Positions 17,901 through 37,530 of a stretch of 64,000 nucleotides of DNA are shown here, in pieces. A program made the position numbers and the translations under genes. The notes below the pieces were generated by a model. It saw only the letters and a program-made list of their open reading frames with translations. It made no database searches and was not told the origin of the DNA. Source of the stretch: Thermoplasmata archaeon (GTDB lineage: Archaea; Thermoplasmatota; Thermoplasmata; Lutacidiplasmatales; UBA184); contig JAKIWE010000001.1 of the NCBI GenBank assembly GCA_022750195.1, forward strand, positions 866,672-930,671, in the 5' to 3' direction. Position 1 is the first letter of the stretch. Each line of letters opens with the position of its first letter.

Positions 17901-18023
17901 TCTGCATGATAGTCTGGAATCGGATATGAGGACCCCTTGAGGGGCGGATCCCTGCCGCTGGAGGTCCCAACGGATTCCTCGTCGAGCGAGCTCAAGCTCG
18001 CCACGTGGCGCTCGGCGTGCGGC

Positions 18024-18098
18024 CGGGCGTGGGGGGATTTGAACCCCCGACCGCCGGGTTAGGAACCCGGTGCCCTATCCAGACTAGGCTACACGCCC
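18024..18098 (-). tRNA. tRNA-Arg, anticodon CCT
   Basis: A complete cloverleaf on the minus strand. Acceptor stem GGGCGTG pairs perfectly with CACGCCC, with G as discriminator base. The D-arm is GCCT...GGGC, the anticodon stem CCGGG/CCCGG with loop TTCCTAA (anticodon CCT, reading AGG), the variable loop CGGTC, and the T-arm GGGGG-TTCAAAT-CCCCC. No intron is present and CCA is not encoded. A TATA-like GTGTAATGG lies roughly 30 nt before the 5' end. The 5' part of this gene and its promoter are copied at 21809-21943. Confidence 0.95.
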
Positions 18099-18205
18099 CG
18101 AGAATCGTGCCCTTTTCCGACCCATTACACTTGTGGACCTGGTCGCGCCTCTTCCGACCGAGACGCCGATCGACCGATCTCCACGCTACGCCACCGTAGG
18201 TCAAC
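18071..18205 (-). repeat. Source copy of a 135-bp duplication (tRNA-Arg 5' part plus upstream region)
   Basis: Matches 21809-21943 without gaps at a constant offset of 3738 bp, roughly 78-80 percent identical by eye. It covers the acceptor and D-arm of tRNA-Arg, the promoter, and about 105 bp further upstream, ending near CCACCGTAGGTC. The rest of the 18099-18397 interval shows no gene. Confidence 0.75.
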
Positions 18206-18397
18206 CCATTCGGCGGGTCCGGTCCTTCCCGGGAGGTCCCCCTTTTCGAGTCGATTCAAGGCGAGTCGCCTCGCGTACAGCGGATCGGACGCGCCCGACT
18301 CGACACGTCTCCGGGGCGAAGGAGGTGCGAATACTTCCGGAGTCGGTGCCAAATCGAGCTTCCCCTAGCGACAACAGGGCCGCTACAAGGTGCGCTG

Positions 18398-21397
18398 TCA
18401 ATCCACCGGGACTGGAGGGGACTTCCTTCGGCGACGGACGAGCACCGCCCCCACGATGCCTCCGAGCACGACCAGGCCGATGCCCCCGAGGAGAGCATAT
18501 CCCTCCAGCGGGGGCAGGCCGAGAAAAGTGGGGGCGTGGGTGGGCCCAGACATCGGCGAGAGCCGGAAGGTGATCGACACCGGCGGAGTGGCTCCCGCCA
18601 CATGCACCGACCCGCTGCTCGGGCTCGCGGCATGCCCAGCTACCAAGCTGACGTCGAACGGGAAGCTACCGTTCGCCTCGGAGAAACTGAGCGAGGGCGA
18701 GGTGGAAGTCAGCAGACTTCCGTTCAGGGTCACGCCCCAGGACGTCCGGGCGGGAAGCCCGGATTCCTCGAAGGTCACGACGTACTGACCTCGCTCGGAG
18801 GCTGCTGAGAAGTTAATGTCCTGGTGCACCGGGGCGCCATGCGCCGTCAGATTCCCGCGAGAGGGGGTGGCGGAGTATCCCGGAATCACGCCGATCACAT
18901 AGGGGTACGTTCCGTTAGGTACCGCCGCGAAGGAAACGGTGTCCGTCCCGCCATCGGTCGCACGGCTCGCCGGGAAGCCGTTGAAGCTCATCGACCACGA
19001 CTCTCCGGCGGGGAGCCCGGTTTCGTTGAACGAGACGGCATAGGTGACCTCCCGGAAGCTGATCGACACGGCGACGGGGCTCGCCCCTACGACGAAGGGT
19101 GAGGCGTAGATGGGCGCCCAGGTCTTGTTGGTCGTCGATGCCGAGAACGGGTACGTGCCGGCCGTGAGGGAGATCGATTGGGTCGCGCCCGTGCCGCTCG
19201 AGGCCCGGACCGACATCGCGGGCTCGCCGCTGATGTTCACGAACCATGTAGCGCTGCTCGGCAGCCCGGTCTCGGTGAAGGTGACCTCGAAGCTCGGAGG
19301 AGCGAGGGCCTGGGAGAGGATCGAGATCGTCCCTTGGAGGTAGTTGCTCACGTACGTGGTCCCGCTCCCGGCGTCGTACGCTACCCCGTCGGGGTTCCCC
19401 CCCACCCTGACCGTCGACGTCACGAGGTCCGTCATGTCCGAGATCACGCTGACCTTGTCGACCACGCCGGAGGTGACGAACAGCTCGCCCTGACCGGCCT
19501 CGTATGTGATGGTCTCCGGAACGCTTCCGACGGCGATAGTGGCGCCGACCGTGTTCGTCGCATCCGAGATCTCGCTGACGTTCCCGGAGTTGGAGTTCGC
19601 GACGAACACCTGGCCCTGCCCGCTGTCGTAGCTGACACCGAGGGGGTCCGCGCCGACCCCGACCGTCGCGACGACCGAGTCGGTCGAGTCCGAGATCACG
19701 CTGACGTTGGCGGAGCCGAAGTTCGTGACGAACAGCTCCCCCTTGCCTCCGTCGCAGGCGACCCCGATCGGCCCCGTTCCGACGGGAATCGTCCGGACCA
19801 CCGTGTTGGAGCTGTCGGAGATCACGCTCACATTGTTGGAGTCGAGATCCGCGACGACGACCTCTCCTCGCGCGGCATCGTACGCGACCCCTTCGGGGGC
19901 GGCCTGGACGGGGACGGTCGCCACGACCGTGTTCGTCGCGTCCGAAACGACCGAGACCGAGTTCGCCCCGTAGTTCGAGACGAAGACCTCGCTCTTGCCC
20001 GAATCGTAGACGACTGCGGTGGGTTCGATTCCGACCGGGATCGTCGCGACGACCTGCCGGGTCGTCGCAGAGACCACGTCCAACCGATTCGTCGAAGAGT
20101 CGGCGACGAAGAATTCCCGCAAGGCGCCATCGAACGCCACTCCGGTGGGGAGGTCCTCGAGCGCGATCGTGCCGACGATCGCATTCGTCGTATCCGAGAT
20201 GACGCCCACGGTGCTCGAACCGTGGTTCGCCACGACGACCTGCATATGCCCGAGGTCGTACGCTAACCCCGCTGGACCAGCGCCGATGCTGATGTTCCGG
20301 ACGACTACGTCACCGATCGTCGCGATCACACTCAGATTGTTGGTGAAGACGTGCGCGACGAAGACCTCCCCCTGATTCGGATCGAAGACGACGGCCCCCG
20401 GATACGGCGACACGGAGACCGTCGCGGCGATCTGGAAGTTCGTGTCGGAGATGACGCTCACGTTGCTCGAATTCGAGTTCGTGACGAAGACCTGGTTCGT
20501 CTGGCTCTCGTAGGCGACGCCCAGCGGCTCCGAGCCCACCGCGAAGGTCTTCAGGACCGTGTCCGATCCGGCCCCGATCACGCTCACATTGTCCGAGATC
20601 AGGTTCGCCACGAACACTTCGCCCTCCCCGGCATCGTAGGCGATCCCGTACGGGGCGGAGCCTACCGCGATGATCTTGACGACGGCGTTGGTCGAGTCCG
20701 AGATCACTTCGACCGTGTGGGTGTAGTACTGGGTCACGAAGACGGTCCCCTGGGCCGGGTCGTACGCGATCCCCCCCGGAGCGCTCGCCAGCGGGATGGT
20801 CGCCACGACCGTGTCCGTCGTGTCCGAGATGACGCTCACGCTCGCGTTTTCGTAATTCGAGACGTAGACCTCCCCCCGCCCGCTATCGTAGGCGAGCGCG
20901 ATCGGAGAGGTCCTGACCGCCACGGTCGCGACGACCACCTGCGAGGTGTCGTTGATCACGCTGACATTGCCCGAGCCCATGTCGGCCACGAAGAACTCCC
21001 CCTTCCCGCGGTCGTACGCCACAGCCGCCGGCCCCTGGCCGTGACCCGCGAGGAAGTTCCCCGCTTGCAGAGTGTCGTTCAGCAGGACTAGAGTGTCGTT
21101 CACAACGGGGGCCGGCAGGACGGTCGGGACCCGGAGGCCGTTCCCGGCGACCCCCCGAACCGCGGGCTGGGAGCGAAGCTCAGCGTGACGGACTCCGGAG
21201 GCGACGGGATCATGGAACGAGGCTCGGGCGGTCGCGTTCCCAGGTTCCACCCAGCTCGACGACGGGCCCGAATGCCCGGTGGGTGCGACGAGGGCGAAGC
21301 CGAATCCGGAAACCGTGACGAGCAAGCACCCGAGGAATGCGGTCGATCGCGCGGGCAGCCGCCTGACTCCGACCCCGGGAAGTCTGAGCCCCTCCAT
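18398..21397 (-). CDS. Surface protein: 14 YVTN-type propeller repeats, GLP-type domains, C-terminal anchor
   Basis: A 999-residue predicted cell-surface protein. ATG 21397 gives a signal-type segment (STAFLGCLLVTVSGFGFALVA); the track's GTG 21484 adds 29 residues. Residues about 110-710 contain 14 repeats of about 42 residues with the pattern P.GVAYD...GEVFVAN...NVSVISD.TN.VVATI, enough for two seven-bladed propellers of the YVTN/surface-layer type. Then follow three domains of about 85-90 residues starting VTFTETGLPSSATWFV, VSFNETGLPAGESWSM and VTFEESGLPARTSWGV. A transmembrane helix (YALLGGIGLVVLGGIVGAVLV) and RRRRK close the protein. The same GLP-type domain ends the thermopsin at 26754-29288. 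A CCTTAAGG lies about 35 nt before the ATG. Confidence 0.88.
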   Translation of the reverse strand: MEGLRLPGVGVRRLPARSTAFLGCLLVTVSGFGFALVAPTGHSGPSSSWVEPGNATARASFHDPVASGVRHAELRSQPAVRGVAGNGLRVPTVLPAPVVNDTLVLLNDTLQAGNFLAGHGQGPAAVAYDRGKGEFFVADMGSGNVSVINDTSQVVVATVAVRTSPIALAYDSGRGEVYVSNYENASVSVISDTTDTVVATIPLASAPGGIAYDPAQGTVFVTQYYTHTVEVISDSTNAVVKIIAVGSAPYGIAYDAGEGEVFVANLISDNVSVIGAGSDTVLKTFAVGSEPLGVAYESQTNQVFVTNSNSSNVSVISDTNFQIAATVSVSPYPGAVVFDPNQGEVFVAHVFTNNLSVIATIGDVVVRNISIGAGPAGLAYDLGHMQVVVANHGSSTVGVISDTTNAIVGTIALEDLPTGVAFDGALREFFVADSSTNRLDVVSATTRQVVATIPVGIEPTAVVYDSGKSEVFVSNYGANSVSVVSDATNTVVATVPVQAAPEGVAYDAARGEVVVADLDSNNVSVISDSSNTVVRTIPVGTGPIGVACDGGKGELFVTNFGSANVSVISDSTDSVVATVGVGADPLGVSYDSGQGQVFVANSNSGNVSEISDATNTVGATIAVGSVPETITYEAGQGELFVTSGVVDKVSVISDMTDLVTSTVRVGGNPDGVAYDAGSGTTYVSNYLQGTISILSQALAPPSFEVTFTETGLPSSATWFVNISGEPAMSVRASSGTGATQSISLTAGTYPFSASTTNKTWAPIYASPFVVGASPVAVSISFREVTYAVSFNETGLPAGESWSMSFNGFPASRATDGGTDTVSFAAVPNGTYPYVIGVIPGYSATPSRGNLTAHGAPVHQDINFSAASERGQYVVTFEESGLPARTSWGVTLNGSLLTSTSPSLSFSEANGSFPFDVSLVAGHAASPSSGSVHVAGATPPVSITFRLSPMSGPTHAPTFLGLPPLEGYALLGGIGLVVLGGIVGAVLVRRRRKSPPVPVD

Positions 21398-21678
21398 TGC
21401 CCGCCGGGTTCGGCAGGGGGGTCCGCGCCTTAAGGAGGCGGATTTCGGTGGGCCGGGGCGAGTGCTCCGGCTCGAACGGGGCACGGTTGGGCCCCGCCGA
21501 CTCCCCGCCGAGTGGGGCCTTGGTCCTCCCTCCGAGGGCGGCCGCCTTGGCGCCCGGGTCGATGGACGGGGACCGGATCTGGAGCGAGTCTGGGAGGGTG
21601 GAGGCCCCTCATTCGGCTCGAGGCAGGCCGACCGCCGTAGCCCGAGGAATCCTCCTACCTGAACCCGATACGTGTGGA

Positions 21679-21706
21679 GAGCCCGGGGAGGGCCGGACCC
21701 TCTGAA
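21679..21706. repeat. 28-bp GC-rich motif, copy 1 (tRNA T-arm-like)
   Basis: GAGCCCGGGGAGGGCCGGAC followed by CCTCTGAA. It matches 37531-37558 at 24 of 28 positions. On the minus strand it resembles a tRNA T-arm plus acceptor end, but the loop TCCGGCC lacks the invariant T55 and A58, so it is not a working tRNA 3' end. Confidence 0.5.
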
Positions 21707-21808
21707 GCGCTTAGAGCGCCCAAGCGGCGGAGGGTCGAGAGCCGTACGTCGGTGTCGCGTCTCCCGTCAGCGCTTCCGGGTGAAAACGGGAGGAGTTGGG
21801 AGGTGGGT

Positions 21809-21943
21809 TGCCCAACCCAGACGAGGCTACACGCCCCGAGAATCGTCTCCCTTTCCAGCGCATTACCCTTGTGGACCCGGTCCCGCCTACGCAGACCGAG
21901 AGGCCAATCGACTGATCTCTACCCTCCGTCACCGTAGGTCGAC
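21809..21943 (-). pseudogene. Truncated tRNA-Arg copy with its promoter
   Basis: Copy of 18071-18205. On the minus strand the acceptor strand GGGCGTG, TA and D-arm GCCTCGTCTGGGTTGGGCA are kept, and so is the TATA-like GGTAATG upstream. After position 26 of the tRNA the similarity stops: there is no anticodon arm, T-arm or CACGCCC. The retained promoter means a non-tRNA transcript could still be made here, but that is speculation. Confidence 0.7.
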
Positions 21944-22074
21944 ACTTTCGGAACTTCGGGAACTGCGACTACCCTCGACTTTTCGACACGGCCCGTGCCA
22001 GCTCCGGCGGATAGTTCATCACCACGATTCTGCCGACTGGGACGGCTTATTGCTCGCGCAGCGATGATGAGACC

Positions 22075-22728
22075 ATGGAGGATCGGAGTTCGGGTGGGGT
22101 TCGAGCGCCCCGAGCCGTGTGGAGGAGTCGTCTCCTCGCGGGCAGCGTTGGGGTGGTCATCGCGATCCTGTTCCTTACGTCGGCTGCGCATGCGTCCGTG
22201 TTCAGCCCTGCCGTCTTGTTCGGCAAACCTCAATCGGGCCCGTTGAGCCCCCCCCAGACCAGCTCCTCCGGACCCCACTTCAGCGCCACAACGTGCACGG
22301 CCAAGGTGTCGAACGCAACTCTGACGCAAGGGATCGTTCATCTGTACGAGGGGAACGGCAACACCTCGGGATCTGGGTCCGGGCTCATCAACCAAGGCCC
22401 GCCCGGCGTAGGCGCCTATCCGCGCGAGTCGGTCGCCGTACTGAACGTGGTCAACGGATGGTTGGCAGTCTGCGAGAGCCCCGCGTATTACGCTCTGGTC
22501 CATCAGTGGGGCGACCCGAGCTTCCCGTGGAATGCGCTAGCCCAGAACAGCTCGGGCATCTACGAGTACGTCATCGCCGTGAATTGGCAAGCACCGGCAA
22601 CCTCGTGCCCAGCGAACTCGAACTCCGGCGCACCGTGCATGGGAAGCGCCGAGTGGCTGATCAATGTCGCCTCTGGAATGGTTTCCGGCCCGAAAACCTG
22701 GTACTGGGCGATCCAGCCCGCCCTCTGA
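22075..22728 (+). CDS. Secreted protein of unknown function
   Basis: A 217-residue protein with a basic start and signal-type segment (RLLAGSVGVVIAILFLTSAAHA, residues about 20-41). A compact extracellular domain follows, rich in Asn, Ser, Gly and Trp, with four Cys residues (TTCTAKV, AVCESP, ATSCPAN, GAPCMG) that could form two disulfides. There is no C-terminal anchor, so it is probably released. ATG 22075 has a TATA-like CTTATTG at 22046-22052, about 26 nt upstream, consistent with a leaderless transcript. No family is recognised. Confidence 0.72.
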   Translation: MEDRSSGGVRAPRAVWRSRLLAGSVGVVIAILFLTSAAHASVFSPAVLFGKPQSGPLSPPQTSSSGPHFSATTCTAKVSNATLTQGIVHLYEGNGNTSGSGSGLINQGPPGVGAYPRESVAVLNVVNGWLAVCESPAYYALVHQWGDPSFPWNALAQNSSGIYEYVIAVNWQAPATSCPANSNSGAPCMGSAEWLINVASGMVSGPKTWYWAIQPAL

Positions 22729-23167
22729 AAACTACGAGGCGGGCCGGATCCCCGCCTAGCTGAGGCGGTCGGCCACCTCCAGGGTTCGGCCCGGAACAGG
22801 TCCTTACCCGGACGGCGGCCGCGGTCCGGAACGTGAGCCCTTGCTCTCCGGTGTCCGTTCATGCCTAGTCCGGTTCGTTCTGCGCTTTCTCGATGAACGA
22901 CGTTGAACCAGGATACACCCCCCCGTGCCGTTCGCAGCGGAGATGGAGCTCTCCAGAGAGACCTCCTGTCCCTCGCCCCTTTCGCGGCCCGCCGAACCGC
23001 CGACCCGAGCTGGTCTGCACGCGCCCCTCTCGGAGTTCGAAGGGTGCGGTTCGTGGCCGATCGGACCGTCGACTAGATTCAGAGGGCGCAAACGCTGGAC
23101 CATCACGAGCGCTGCCGATGGTCACCGAGGACCCGAGAGCTCCCGGCCGAGCCCTCCTCGCACCGAA
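22729..23167. other. Intergenic stretch, possible terminator hairpin only
   Basis: About 440 bases. Just after the secreted-protein stop there is a GC-rich inverted repeat (GGCGGG ... CCCGCC near 22739-22758) that could be an intrinsic termination or processing structure, though no T-run follows. I recognise nothing in the rest; the short ORFs overlap in all frames. Confidence 0.35.
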
Positions 23168-24220
23168 TCATCCCGAGCCGCGAGGCGGGAGCAACCGGTC
23201 GTACCGGTGATTTACCCAGGGCGAGATCGAGGTCACCGAGTCTTGAAGGATCTCGATGCCCTCGAGCGCGTCGCGCAATCGTGACATCGGCGGCTGGCGC
23301 TCCGCGTCGCGAGGGAAGCTGTGCGAGGATGGCCCGGCGGCCTGCCCAAGCGCCAGGATGATGAGACGACCCGACCCGGAGGCCATCAGCAGCGGAAACA
23401 CGCGTGAGGCCTGGGTAAGCGTCGCGAGCAAAGCACCCGCGGAATGTCCTTCCTTCAACGTCCCCGTGATGGCCACGAGCTGTCCGGCAGCTCGTCCTTG
23501 GTACGGCGGGATTCTCCCCGCGTCGAGGAGAACGCGGTGCCGAACGGTCCCGGCCTCGAGGAGTCGACGTTGCGACCACGGAAGTCCGAACGTTCCGATC
23601 ACGTGGCCCGGACGGCCCTCGGCTTCCGCTGCGAACGGGCGATGGACGAGCTCGAGGGCGGCCCAGCTCGTCCGTCGGGAGCTGGGACCCGGGTCGTTCT
23701 CGCCGGGCGGATTCCCTCCCAGTCCGCGAGGGTAGTCGGTGGTCCCCATCGCCCCTGCGACGTGGGACCACGCGCCCTCGTAGTCGAAATAGACCGGGAT
23801 GGATCCGCTCCGTGCGTCCGACACGACTCCGTACGACCAGCCGGCGAGACCGTTCTTGGTCGGCGAATCCACGAACTCGCGGGCCGCACGCTCGCTCTCC
23901 GCCCAAGCGACCCCCAACAGGAACTGAGGGCTGCTGGCGACCACTACGGCGGCGGGGTGGTCCGAGAGCATCTTGACGAACTCCCGGATCCGGTCCGCGA
24001 ACGGTCGAGCCGCCAGGAAGGCAACCCAGGGAAACCCGAACGCAACAGGATCCGGGACGTAGCGGTCGAGCACCCAGGACTCGGCGTAACAACGCCGACG
24101 GGCGGCGTGGTAGGTGGACCGGGGAAGGGCGATGCGTCGGAGCCGGTCGCGTTCGCCTTCGGGCACATCCGCCACCAACGCGGTGAGCACCCGTGCTTCC
24201 GCGTCGGTCAGCGACCGCAC
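23168..24220 (-). CDS. HTH-domain protein of unknown function
   Basis: A 350-residue soluble protein. The first 60 residues look like a winged or simple helix-turn-helix (LTDAEARVLTALVADVPEGE, then LRRIALPRSTYHAARRRCYA). The remainder is an alpha/beta region without a motif I recognise; it contains FLAARPFADRIREFVKMLS and a long C-terminal part with GSGRLIILALG. This suggests a transcription regulator with an uncharacterised effector domain. The start is GTG 24220, with GGGAGG about 9 nt upstream and a weak TATA-like GTGCTAAG about 30 nt upstream. It is divergent from the surface-protein gene at 24347. Confidence 0.65.
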   Translation of the reverse strand: MRSLTDAEARVLTALVADVPEGERDRLRRIALPRSTYHAARRRCYAESWVLDRYVPDPVAFGFPWVAFLAARPFADRIREFVKMLSDHPAAVVVASSPQFLLGVAWAESERAAREFVDSPTKNGLAGWSYGVVSDARSGSIPVYFDYEGAWSHVAGAMGTTDYPRGLGGNPPGENDPGPSSRRTSWAALELVHRPFAAEAEGRPGHVIGTFGLPWSQRRLLEAGTVRHRVLLDAGRIPPYQGRAAGQLVAITGTLKEGHSAGALLATLTQASRVFPLLMASGSGRLIILALGQAAGPSSHSFPRDAERQPPMSRLRDALEGIEILQDSVTSISPWVNHRYDRLLPPRGSG

Positions 24221-26753: not shown

Positions 26754-29288
26754 CTAGGTCCAGGCGATGTGGACCCAGAGGGTCGTGCTCCCGACGATCG
26801 CCGCTCCGCTCGACGGGCTCGCGGTGTGGCCCGCGACCGCGCCGACCGTGTAGGCGTAGGTGCCCGCCGGCTCCCAGAAGATCAGCTCGTGACCGGTCGT
26901 CCCCTTGGTGATCCCGTTGAGCGTGACGGTCCACGCCGTGGCGGGGGGGAGGCCGGTCTCACGGAAGATCACCTTCGTCAGGGTGAACGGCGTGAGCGGG
27001 TGCTGGTCGCCGCCGACCGAGATCGCGCCCCCGTCGTTGTACGGGAGGACGCCGAACGGGTCCGTCGCCGAGCCGTAGTTCCCCCAGTAGTTCCCGCCCT
27101 CGTAGTGGAGCCCCAGGATGTTGCCGGAGAGGACCCAGCCGTTGACGGTGCGCGTGTTGGTCGCCGCTTGAAGCGCGACGTTCCACCGGTCCGTCCAGAG
27201 ACCGGGCCCGCCGGTGTAGAGGTCGAAACCGGGGGTCGCCGCGGTGAACGGCGTCGTGAACGCGTTGTTGTAGATCAGGTCGCCCGACTCGTAGTCCTCG
27301 AAGCCGATCTGCGCTCCGCCGTTGGCGATCGTCCCGGGGTTGGCCGCCGTCGTGGTCGCGGCGGAGAAGTCGTTGCCCCAGACGACGTTGTTCGTGCCTC
27401 CGACCGACAGGTAGAGCCCCTGGCTCTGAACCTGGAAGCCGTTCCCGGCGATCAGGCTGTCGCTGACGTGCCAGAACAACGCGCTCACCTGGAAGGAGTT
27501 CTGGAACCAGCCCCAGCCGGTGATCTGCGGGTTGTTGACGAGCGAGACGTGCTCGGCGTTGTAGACCTGCAGCTGAAGGTTGTTCGAGAGCGGCGTCCCG
27601 AACCGAGCCGCCTCGGCCCCCTCCGCCGGCAGCGAGTAGGAGACCGCGAAGTCGGGGAGTCCGCTGGCCGTGACGTAGGCCGTGGTGTCGGCGAGGAACA
27701 GCCCGGGGAACACGGGGAAGAAGAAGTCGTTGAACTCCCCGAACAGCGGCGAGATCGGCCCGACACCGTTGTTGTCGAGGACGTACGGGTGGGTGACCGT
27801 CCCCGTTCCGCCCGCCTGGGAGATCGCGGCGAGCTGCGCGTTGTTCCAGGCCCAGAGGGGCGTGTAGACGCCCTTGCTCGCATCGGCTACGAGGTTCACC
27901 GTGAGGTGGGAGCTCGCACTGACCGTGGAGGTCACCGCGCGGTAGTCGCTCAACAGGATCTTCCAGGTGTAGGTGCCGGGCGGGAGCTGGAAGGTAGCGG
28001 TGCCGGCCGCCGGGAACGGCGCCCAGGCCGCGTTCGCAGTGCTGAACGAACCGCCGGTCCAGGCGAAGACGAACGCGTTGGACGGCGTGACGGTCAAGGT
28101 CGTCTTCACCGAACCGCTGTGCGTCCCGACGAGGCCCCAGAGCGGCTGGAGGAGCGACGGGCCACCGCCGAGGACCGCGACCGGGTTGGTGCCACCCGCC
28201 GTCCACTCGGCGATCCCTTCGGAGGTCTCGCCGGTGTCGGTCCCGAAGCTCGAGCCTGCGGGTACGACCTTGTAGGTCGCCGACCCGTTCGGCAGCGTCC
28301 AGAGCCCCATCGTCGCGTCGATCCCGAGGAGCGTCGTCGTCGTGCCGCCGCCGGGCCCGCCGATCATCACTTCAGCGTCGTTGAGGAGGCCGAGCGGGTT
28401 GGTCGCTTTCCCGTTGATCTGGTAGACCGGCATCGGCGCGCGCGGTGGGTGCGCGAGGGCCGACGAGTTGAACTCGACCTGGTCGTAGGAGCCCTGGTAG
28501 TTCGTCCCGTTCGCCGCGGTGATGGAGTAGTTGAAGAAGATCGTCGGGCGGTTGTTCACGACGCTCGCGTTGTTCCAGAGCGCGATCGTGAACGGGGTTG
28601 GCATGTAGAACGCCGGGCCGACGGTGTAGTAGAAGACGCCCGGGACGACCTGCCCCGAGTAGCTGTAGAGGGTACTGGTCTGCATGCCGGCGGTCGGGGA
28701 GCTGAAGTTCCAGATGTTGTCCTCGATGTAGAGGACGCCCGTGCTCGCCTGGTAGACCGGCACGTTCTGGATCCAGTACTGACCGCTGGTGTTGCCCAGC
28801 ACGTCGACGTTCGTCGCTACGGTGTTCAGTTGCAGGGTAAAGTAATCCGGCGAGGTGGACGACAGGAGGAACGGGTCGACGCTACCTACGTGGACGACGG
28901 CCTCGACGCTCTTGGTGTAGGAGATCGTGCCGACGTTGACTCCGCCGGACTTGTGGACGCCGAAGTAGCCGAGCCCCATCGGAGCCGGGGCGGCCGAGTA
29001 GAGAGGCTGCACGACTCCGTTGACGACGGAGGGGTGGGAGTTGATGTTGGGCAGGAGCACGTCCCGCGTTGGAATGTGGTTCTCGCGAATCGCCGTGAGG
29101 GCCTTTTGCACGGTCGGGTTCACGGTAGCAGCGGTCGCGTGGGTCGGTACAGCGGCGCTGGCGGGTGTATGCGCCGCCGAGGCGACGTGAGGAGTCCCGG
29201 CGGCCGCACCGAGCGCGCCGGACGGGATCAGCATGATCGCCGCGAAAGCCACTGCCACCAGAACGAGACCGCGCGCTAGGGCTGTCAT
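26754..29288 (-). CDS. Thermopsin-family acid endopeptidase (MEROPS A5) with C-terminal GLP-type domain
   Basis: An 844-residue secreted protease. The signal peptide (RGLVLVAVAFAAIMLIPSGALG) follows ATG 29288. The thermopsin core begins after about residue 70 with PAPMGLGYFGVHKSGG, which corresponds to the family hallmark, and continues with IQNVPVYQASTG, IWNFSSP and MPTPFTIALW. Thermopsins are pepstatin-insensitive acid proteases, which suggests an acidic habitat. Residues 770-844 are an extra domain (VIFRETGLPPATAWTVTLNG) of the same type found three times in the YVTN surface protein. No membrane anchor is present, so it is probably released. TATAAA at 29314-29319 lies about 28 nt before the ATG, indicating a leaderless mRNA. 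Confidence 0.9.
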   Translation of the reverse strand: MTALARGLVLVAVAFAAIMLIPSGALGAAAGTPHVASAAHTPASAAVPTHATAATVNPTVQKALTAIRENHIPTRDVLLPNINSHPSVVNGVVQPLYSAAPAPMGLGYFGVHKSGGVNVGTISYTKSVEAVVHVGSVDPFLLSSTSPDYFTLQLNTVATNVDVLGNTSGQYWIQNVPVYQASTGVLYIEDNIWNFSSPTAGMQTSTLYSYSGQVVPGVFYYTVGPAFYMPTPFTIALWNNASVVNNRPTIFFNYSITAANGTNYQGSYDQVEFNSSALAHPPRAPMPVYQINGKATNPLGLLNDAEVMIGGPGGGTTTTLLGIDATMGLWTLPNGSATYKVVPAGSSFGTDTGETSEGIAEWTAGGTNPVAVLGGGPSLLQPLWGLVGTHSGSVKTTLTVTPSNAFVFAWTGGSFSTANAAWAPFPAAGTATFQLPPGTYTWKILLSDYRAVTSTVSASSHLTVNLVADASKGVYTPLWAWNNAQLAAISQAGGTGTVTHPYVLDNNGVGPISPLFGEFNDFFFPVFPGLFLADTTAYVTASGLPDFAVSYSLPAEGAEAARFGTPLSNNLQLQVYNAEHVSLVNNPQITGWGWFQNSFQVSALFWHVSDSLIAGNGFQVQSQGLYLSVGGTNNVVWGNDFSAATTTAANPGTIANGGAQIGFEDYESGDLIYNNAFTTPFTAATPGFDLYTGGPGLWTDRWNVALQAATNTRTVNGWVLSGNILGLHYEGGNYWGNYGSATDPFGVLPYNDGGAISVGGDQHPLTPFTLTKVIFRETGLPPATAWTVTLNGITKGTTGHELIFWEPAGTYAYTVGAVAGHTASPSSGAAIVGSTTLWVHIAWT

Positions 29289-29313
29289 GGGTCGGGCGGA
29301 CGTATAACCCCTC

Positions 29314-37021: not shown

Positions 37022-37462
37022 CTACGCCTTCAGATAGGGCTCCATCGCTGCACTGAAGATTCGCATTCCGGCCCGCATCTCTTCCTCGTCCAGACCGATG
37101 TAGTGGGCGGTCATGTCCACCGATTCGTGGCCGTAGATGTTCTTCAGGTCGACGAGCGATACCCCAGCCTAGTAGGCGGCCCGACCGAACGATCGTCGCA
37201 GGTCGTGTCCAGGCACCTTCAGCCCGATTCGTACGCCCGCCGCGACCGCGTCCTTTTCGAGGGTCACGAGCGACAGAGGGTAGACGGGGTCCTCCGGCCT
37301 CTTCCCCTGGACGGCTTCTAGGAGCATCGGACAGACCACGACCGTGTCCATCGGAATCGTCCGCCACTTCTGGTAGAGGAGATTGACTCCGGTAGAGACT
37401 AGCCCGCCGACGACTGCGATGCTCAGGTCGGCAAGGTATGTCCCGATCACCGACCAATCCAT
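37022..37462 (-). pseudogene. Tyrosine recombinase (integrase) remnant, truncated and interrupted by TAG
   Basis: From about residue 33 the frame reads as the C-terminal half of an archaeal integrase: KWRTIPMDTVVV, then HDLRRSFGRAAY with the catalytic His and Arg. An in-frame TAG at 37169-37171 follows, then AGVSLVDLKNIYGHESVDMT with the second His, HYIGLDEEE with the Tyr nucleophile, and an ordinary stop at 37022. The N-terminal core-binding domain and the first catalytic Arg are missing; the first 32 residues (DWSVIGTYLADLSIAVVGG) are unrelated and hydrophobic. Truncation plus a stop codon mean it is inactive. It lies next to the repeated Sec61-beta 3' end, the usual place for the int gene of an integrated element. 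Confidence 0.82.
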
Positions 37463-37530
37463 GCCTGAGAATGAGGAAGGGTCCTCAATCGCACCTTAGG
37501 TCCGACCCGCAAATGTGGAAAATCGGGGGA

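Follow-up and report, generated by a model that had tools for sequence, protein, structure and literature searches.

The window analysed here, a stretch of 64,000 nucleotides from a Thermoplasmata archaeon, carries an intact tRNA-Arg(CCT) gene, a large surface-protein gene and a partial copy of the tRNA (Table 1). A repeat search found a 143-nt ungapped direct repeat (18071-18213 and 21809-21951, 82% identity, offset 3738 nt), composed of nt 1-28 of tRNA-Arg(CCT) and the 115 nt upstream of the gene. The first-pass annotation had described a gapless repeat of the promoter and 5' part of this tRNA at a constant offset. That repeat is real and was correctly located, but its ends, set there at 18205 and 21943, lie slightly further out. 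The identity is well above background: 13-19 of every 20 nt agree along the repeat diagonal, against at most 9 of 20 outside it.

Table 1. Features of the tRNA-Arg(CCT) locus, in window coordinates
Feature	Position	Strand	Basis or remark
Intact tRNA-Arg(CCT)	18024..18098	-	ARAGORN and Rfam RF00005, 69.2 bits
115-nt upstream segment: promoter region adjoining the tRNA and vestigial integrase C-terminal tail	18099..18213	-	Repeat partner 21837-21951; tail resemblance
Vestigial integrase C-terminal tail	codons 18128-18211, stop 18125-18127	-	Statistical resemblance to integrase tail
Surface protein gene, NHL/YNCE (YVTN-type) repeats, 1028 aa	18398..21484	-	PF01436 and PF21783; likely ATG start 21397
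tRNA-Arg 5' fragment, nt 1-28 with three changes; read as displaced, attL-like end	21809..21836	-	25/28 identity
Upstream segment of displaced fragment	21837..21951	-	80% identical to 18099-18213; same frame, two internal stops
ORF of 217 aa, hydrophobic N-terminus; extra DNA relative to relatives	22075..22728	+	No family match
Native tRNA 5' fragment, possibly displaced at an earlier date; weak candidate	23005..23026	-	GGGCGCGTGCAGACCAGCTCGG; 142 nt after the stop of the anchor gene
Syntenic anchor gene, 350 aa; orthologue directly precedes tRNA-Arg(CCT) in relatives	23168..24220	-	Synteny

The likeness of the fragment to the tRNA (25 of 28 nt) was equalled by none of 100 dinucleotide shuffles of the insert. 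Beyond nt 28 the similarity is absent (p 0.43) and no trace of tRNA nt 29-75 follows the fragment at 21809-21836; a full tRNA copy decayed at its 3' end was rejected on this count. In a search of the whole genome, the 115-nt upstream part occurs twice, both times at this locus, and a dispersed repeat was ruled out on this count. The other 102 genomes of the family gave short marginal matches only. A promoter conserved throughout the genus was also ruled out, as the upstream regions of congeners do not align with the segment. ARAGORN called in addition a tRNA-Gln(TTG) on the plus strand (18006-18081), opposite tRNA-Arg(CCT). This was rejected as an antisense artefact, Rfam retaining the Arg gene alone.

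The two copies flank the YVTN gene, as the first-pass annotation had stated. Tandem repeat units of 126 nt (42 aa) occupy 19422-21038 of this gene. The nearest relatives of its product in the family are at most 52% identical and lie mostly at other loci, the closest, in G403, being about 0.9 kb from a tRNA-Thr gene. A YVTN-type gene is located just 3' of tRNA-Arg(CCT) in G014 and G006, while in G372 and G315 large ORFs with related C-terminal parts fill the same gap between anchor gene and tRNA. Base composition does not distinguish the insert from its surroundings. Elsewhere in the window, a large ORF on the minus strand (26757-29312) has no counterpart at the corresponding place in relatives, whose flanking genes lie nearer to each other; it is another lineage-specific insertion.

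The tRNA-Arg(CCT) site in related genomes

Synteny around the tRNA was compared, as proposed in the first-pass annotation. In 42 relatives tRNA-Arg(CCT) lies 45-323 bp after the orthologue of the anchor gene, whereas the gap in the window is about 5.1 kb, and the window DNA at about 18.1-23.1 kb is therefore extra. Gaps were obtained by pairing by hand the positions from two family-wide searches, with both genes on one contig. Twelve genomes, the window included, have a gap of about 1-7 kb: 5.1 kb in the window, 5.0 in G002, 5.6 in G015, 4.3 in G315, 5.9 in G403, 6.9 in G041, 2.9 in G372, 1.4 in G246, 1.5 in G318, 1.4 in G285, 1.0 in G405 and 1.0 in G273. Among the relatives, none was found with both copies far apart and unrelated to the surface gene. 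One congener, G240, harbors two intact copies of tRNA-Arg(CCT) on a single contig, about 23 kb from each other (G240:C3; L125 624-698 and L126 13778-13852).

The congener G002 carries at the same place, beside tRNA-Arg(CCT), a 4.9-kb element. Besides ORFs of 488 and 388 aa, it encodes a tyrosine integrase of 303 aa (PF00589, E 5.6e-9), and the integrase gene terminates 26 nt short of the intact tRNA. The opposite end of the element adjoins the anchor gene and shows the original promoter, then tRNA nt 1-21 and then foreign sequence. A matching empty site is present in G001: its promoter side agrees with the displaced side of G002 at 399 of 419 nt, and its tRNA with the intact side at 80 of 84. 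In G002 the promoter and 5' part of the intact tRNA are those of the element. Compared with each other, the 5' parts of the displaced and the intact copy in G002 differ at nt 9, 12 and 13, have nt 14-21 in common (AGCCTGGA) and differ again from nt 22. Since only nt 14-21 are common and differences flank them, the strand exchange can be placed inside these nucleotides, and the crossover in G002, as judged from the alignment, lies in the D-loop. The neighbouring integrase probably carried out this exchange.

Four further integrases are related to that of G002, those of G375 (71% identity), G267 (52%), G216 (39%) and G264 (39%). PF00589 was detected in all five, with G267 just under the curated cut-off, and their alignment retains the R..K..HxxR..H..Y set. 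The integrase gene lies directly upstream of tRNA-Arg(CCT) in G375, G267 and G216, and in these genomes and G002 it ends 26-50 nt before the tRNA; in G264 it is found at the opposite end, beside the displaced fragment. Significant displaced tRNA 5' fragments, matching 21-22 nt, are present in G267 and G264. Past the match, the element side of these two keeps in part the D-stem 3' strand (GTGC), and so does the window copy (GGGC); this can explain why the similarity in the window reaches nt 28. A scan of the genome contigs with the integrase profile returned the known cases only, and a scan of the viral contigs found no relative. A more distant integrase in G004:C67 (L059, 2716-3690) lies beside tRNA-Gln(TTG) (2604-2676) and faces its 3' end, the ordinary arrangement, so the target side varies within the broader integrase family.

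At the ten other occupied sites no significant displaced fragment was detected, the best being that of G315 (p 0.03), and other ways of inserting DNA at this site must therefore exist. The idea that this integrase family made all occupied sites was dropped, as most of them are without a fragment.

Possible traces of an integrase in the window

Each window copy has a frame that ends 29 nt ahead of the tRNA; the integrase frame of the relatives stops 28 nt before it. The 28 codons preceding the stop of the intact copy resemble the integrase tail with p 0.002-0.005 (0/400 without the last three codons), and those of the displaced copy with p 0.0375 (0.0075 without the last three codons). The lowest p at 15 comparison sites was 0.0475, and a genuine integrase tail, that of G216, scores far above the window tails in the same test. 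The 17 differences between the two tail stretches fall 4, 3 and 10 times on codon positions 1, 2 and 3, and the complete 115-nt segments show 23 differences and zero gaps. This resemblance, short and statistical, suggests that both segments are ends of related elements. A 41-nt match between the upstream segment of the window and the displaced promoter in G267 was first taken as homology. It was set aside because tRNA promoters of the family share a motif and the G267 segment has no integrase tail (p 0.7-0.8).

A profile of seven integrases detected no integrase body in 18.1-23.2 kb, the interval between the copies included. At 19 kb from the tRNA, on the minus strand (37025-37495), is a broken integrase that belongs to the same broad family and is split into two pieces by a stop (profile E 1.8e-7 and 2.4e-5; PHROG integrase 1.7e-7).

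Origin of the partial tRNA copy

The partial copy in the window is probably the 5' end of tRNA-Arg(CCT), displaced when an integrative element recombined with the gene at its D-arm. The scar of an insertion had been one of several origins proposed by the first-pass annotation, and it is the best supported of them, through the synteny of the relatives and the integrase element of G002 at the same tRNA. A tyrosine integrase would recombine a site on the element, made of a promoter and a tRNA 5' part, with the chromosomal tRNA. The chromosomal promoter and 5' part would be pushed to the far end of the insert, while the element would provide a new promoter and 5' part, leaving the tRNA whole. In the window the integrase body would since have been lost. 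On this reading nt 1-21 or more of the intact tRNA were supplied by the last element, and the gene represents the attR-like end.

The window fragment is like those of G002, G267 and G264 in the tRNA involved, side, orientation, end region, order and spacing, and the event was presumably the work of the same enzyme family. Against integration count the missing integrase body, the shortness of the tail resemblance and the ten occupied sites that have no significant fragment. In addition, the two upstream segments in each of G002, G267 and G264 are unlike each other, whereas the two of the window are 80% identical, so that an extra assumption, the involvement of two related elements, is needed. 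The 115-nt upstream segment being of the same kind in both copies, two successive integrations by related elements are the simplest account: the first would have delivered 21837-21951, and the second would have displaced it and delivered 18099-18213. A third fragment is predicted by such a serial history. The candidate at 23026-23005 is a faint one, its support varying with the test: p was 0.004-0.012 when the search was confined to the region that holds the tRNA in relatives, and 0.012-0.4 in an earlier test. The stretch common to both ends in the window is longer than nt 14-21 of G002 and decayed, and D-loop sharing is thus not decisive for the window. The YVTN gene would be cargo of the element or DNA captured later. 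The window is a decayed example, and G002, G267 and G264 are better specimens.

Local duplication followed by decay, also raised in the first-pass annotation, is less likely than an integration scar, and we regard it as unlikely. The tRNA with its 115 upstream nt would have been copied across the surface gene, or that gene would have landed between tandem copies, after which the 3' part of one copy was lost, all in the absence of an integrase. Such an event would account for the likeness of the two 115-nt segments, which no other genome of the family shares; whole copies do occur, as the tRNA pair of G240 shows, and with a YVTN-type gene just downstream of the tRNA in G006 and G014, the fragment could mark an older tRNA position. 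However, it ends at the D-arm, as do the integration fragments of three relatives, and nt 29-75 are untraceable. Moreover, 23 gapless differences in 115 nt with a codon-position bias suit former coding sequence better than drifting spacer, and the known insertion of G002 at this place is an integrase element.

Homologous recombination is improbable. Here, a DNA circle or fragment of a relative, with promoter, tRNA and surface gene, would have recombined at the resident tRNA, and the repeats would have decayed on one side. The 18% divergence of the repeat suits an origin between lineages, and several relatives have surface-type ORFs near tRNA-Arg(CCT), but none of the congeners searched has a similar 115-nt segment, the nearest relatives of the YVTN protein, 52% identical at most, are encoded mostly elsewhere, and the end point at the D-arm would be left without explanation. 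Least probable is the suggestion of the first-pass annotation that the promoter was reused for a separate small RNA, with a minus-strand start near 21836. The copy does preserve the 41 nt closest to the start site, and the start site region itself, well, but the segment is not conserved in relatives, and a structured RNA was rejected on the strength of Rfam, which has no match in the copy, and of folding energies no better than those of shuffles (z -0.57, -0.78 and +0.56).

Comparison with known integration systems

Genes for tRNAs are frequent docking sites for mobile DNA, and docking at the anticodon arm, T-arm or 3' end usually leaves the host promoter in place. These are the targets of archaeal integrases, with one described exception: among archaea, only the pTN3-like integrases are reported to use the tRNA 5' half, after which expression of the tRNA proceeds from the integrase side (PMC8371274, PMC5495485). 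The pTN3/TKV4-type elements of Thermococcales resemble the present case in having an archaeal tyrosine integrase and attB in the tRNA 5' half, and in restoring the tRNA but parting it from its original promoter (PMC5495485, PMC8371274). The displaced 5' fragments in the window, G002, G267 and G264 likewise place attB in the tRNA 5' half, a resemblance in target site. In contrast, pTN3 has 41 bp in common with its target, tRNA-Leu, including the anticodon, while G002 has 8 bp in the D-loop of tRNA-Arg(CCT). Integration of pTN3 also splits the integrase gene, with attP inside, whereas in G002, G375 and G267 this gene is unbroken and ends short of the tRNA, and the window has no integrase.

The islands listed by Islander have an intact tRNA and an upstream 5' fragment in the same orientation, with DNA between them (PMC4383910). 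Such 5' fragments occur in 159 of 3919 islands, which bears out the remark in the first-pass annotation that a 5' copy is unusual; Islander places their crossovers in the anticodon loop or the T/acceptor region (PMC4383910), unlike the D-loop crossover of the relatives studied here. In the window the fragment is on the correct side and the same strand, and its distance of 3738 nt falls within 2-200 kb. The integrase that Islander also demands is present in G002, G267 and G264 and absent from the window (PMC4383910). The window is classed as a remnant and was not filed as an island, because 18.1-23.2 kb holds no integrase, only the statistical C-terminal tail. SSV-type and most archaeal integrases are similar in that a tyrosine recombinase acts on a tRNA gene that is restored, but their target is the anticodon arm, T arm or 3' end, and the fragment left is usually a 3' one (PMC8371274).

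Integration into the tRNA 5' half is already known, while a D-loop crossover is not among the sublocations listed in PMC8371274, PMC5495485 and PMC4383910. A literature search, with subscription papers mostly outside its scope, found no tRNA D-loop target. What sets the case apart is a crossover in the D-loop that exchanges the promoter; for this group no earlier report was found.

We tentatively propose, as a possibility short of an expectation, that a family of tyrosine integrases in soil Thermoplasmata recombines in the D-loop of tRNA-Arg(CCT) and replaces its promoter and 5' part, and that serial rounds accumulate DNA, including surface-protein genes, and leave promoter-bearing 5' fragments as a record. 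With docking in the D-loop, every insertion would give the tRNA a new promoter and 5' part, and expression of the host tRNA would therefore come under element-supplied sequence. If confirmed, this would add a target sublocation to those of tRNA genes and allow past insertions to be put in order in this uncultured group of archaea.
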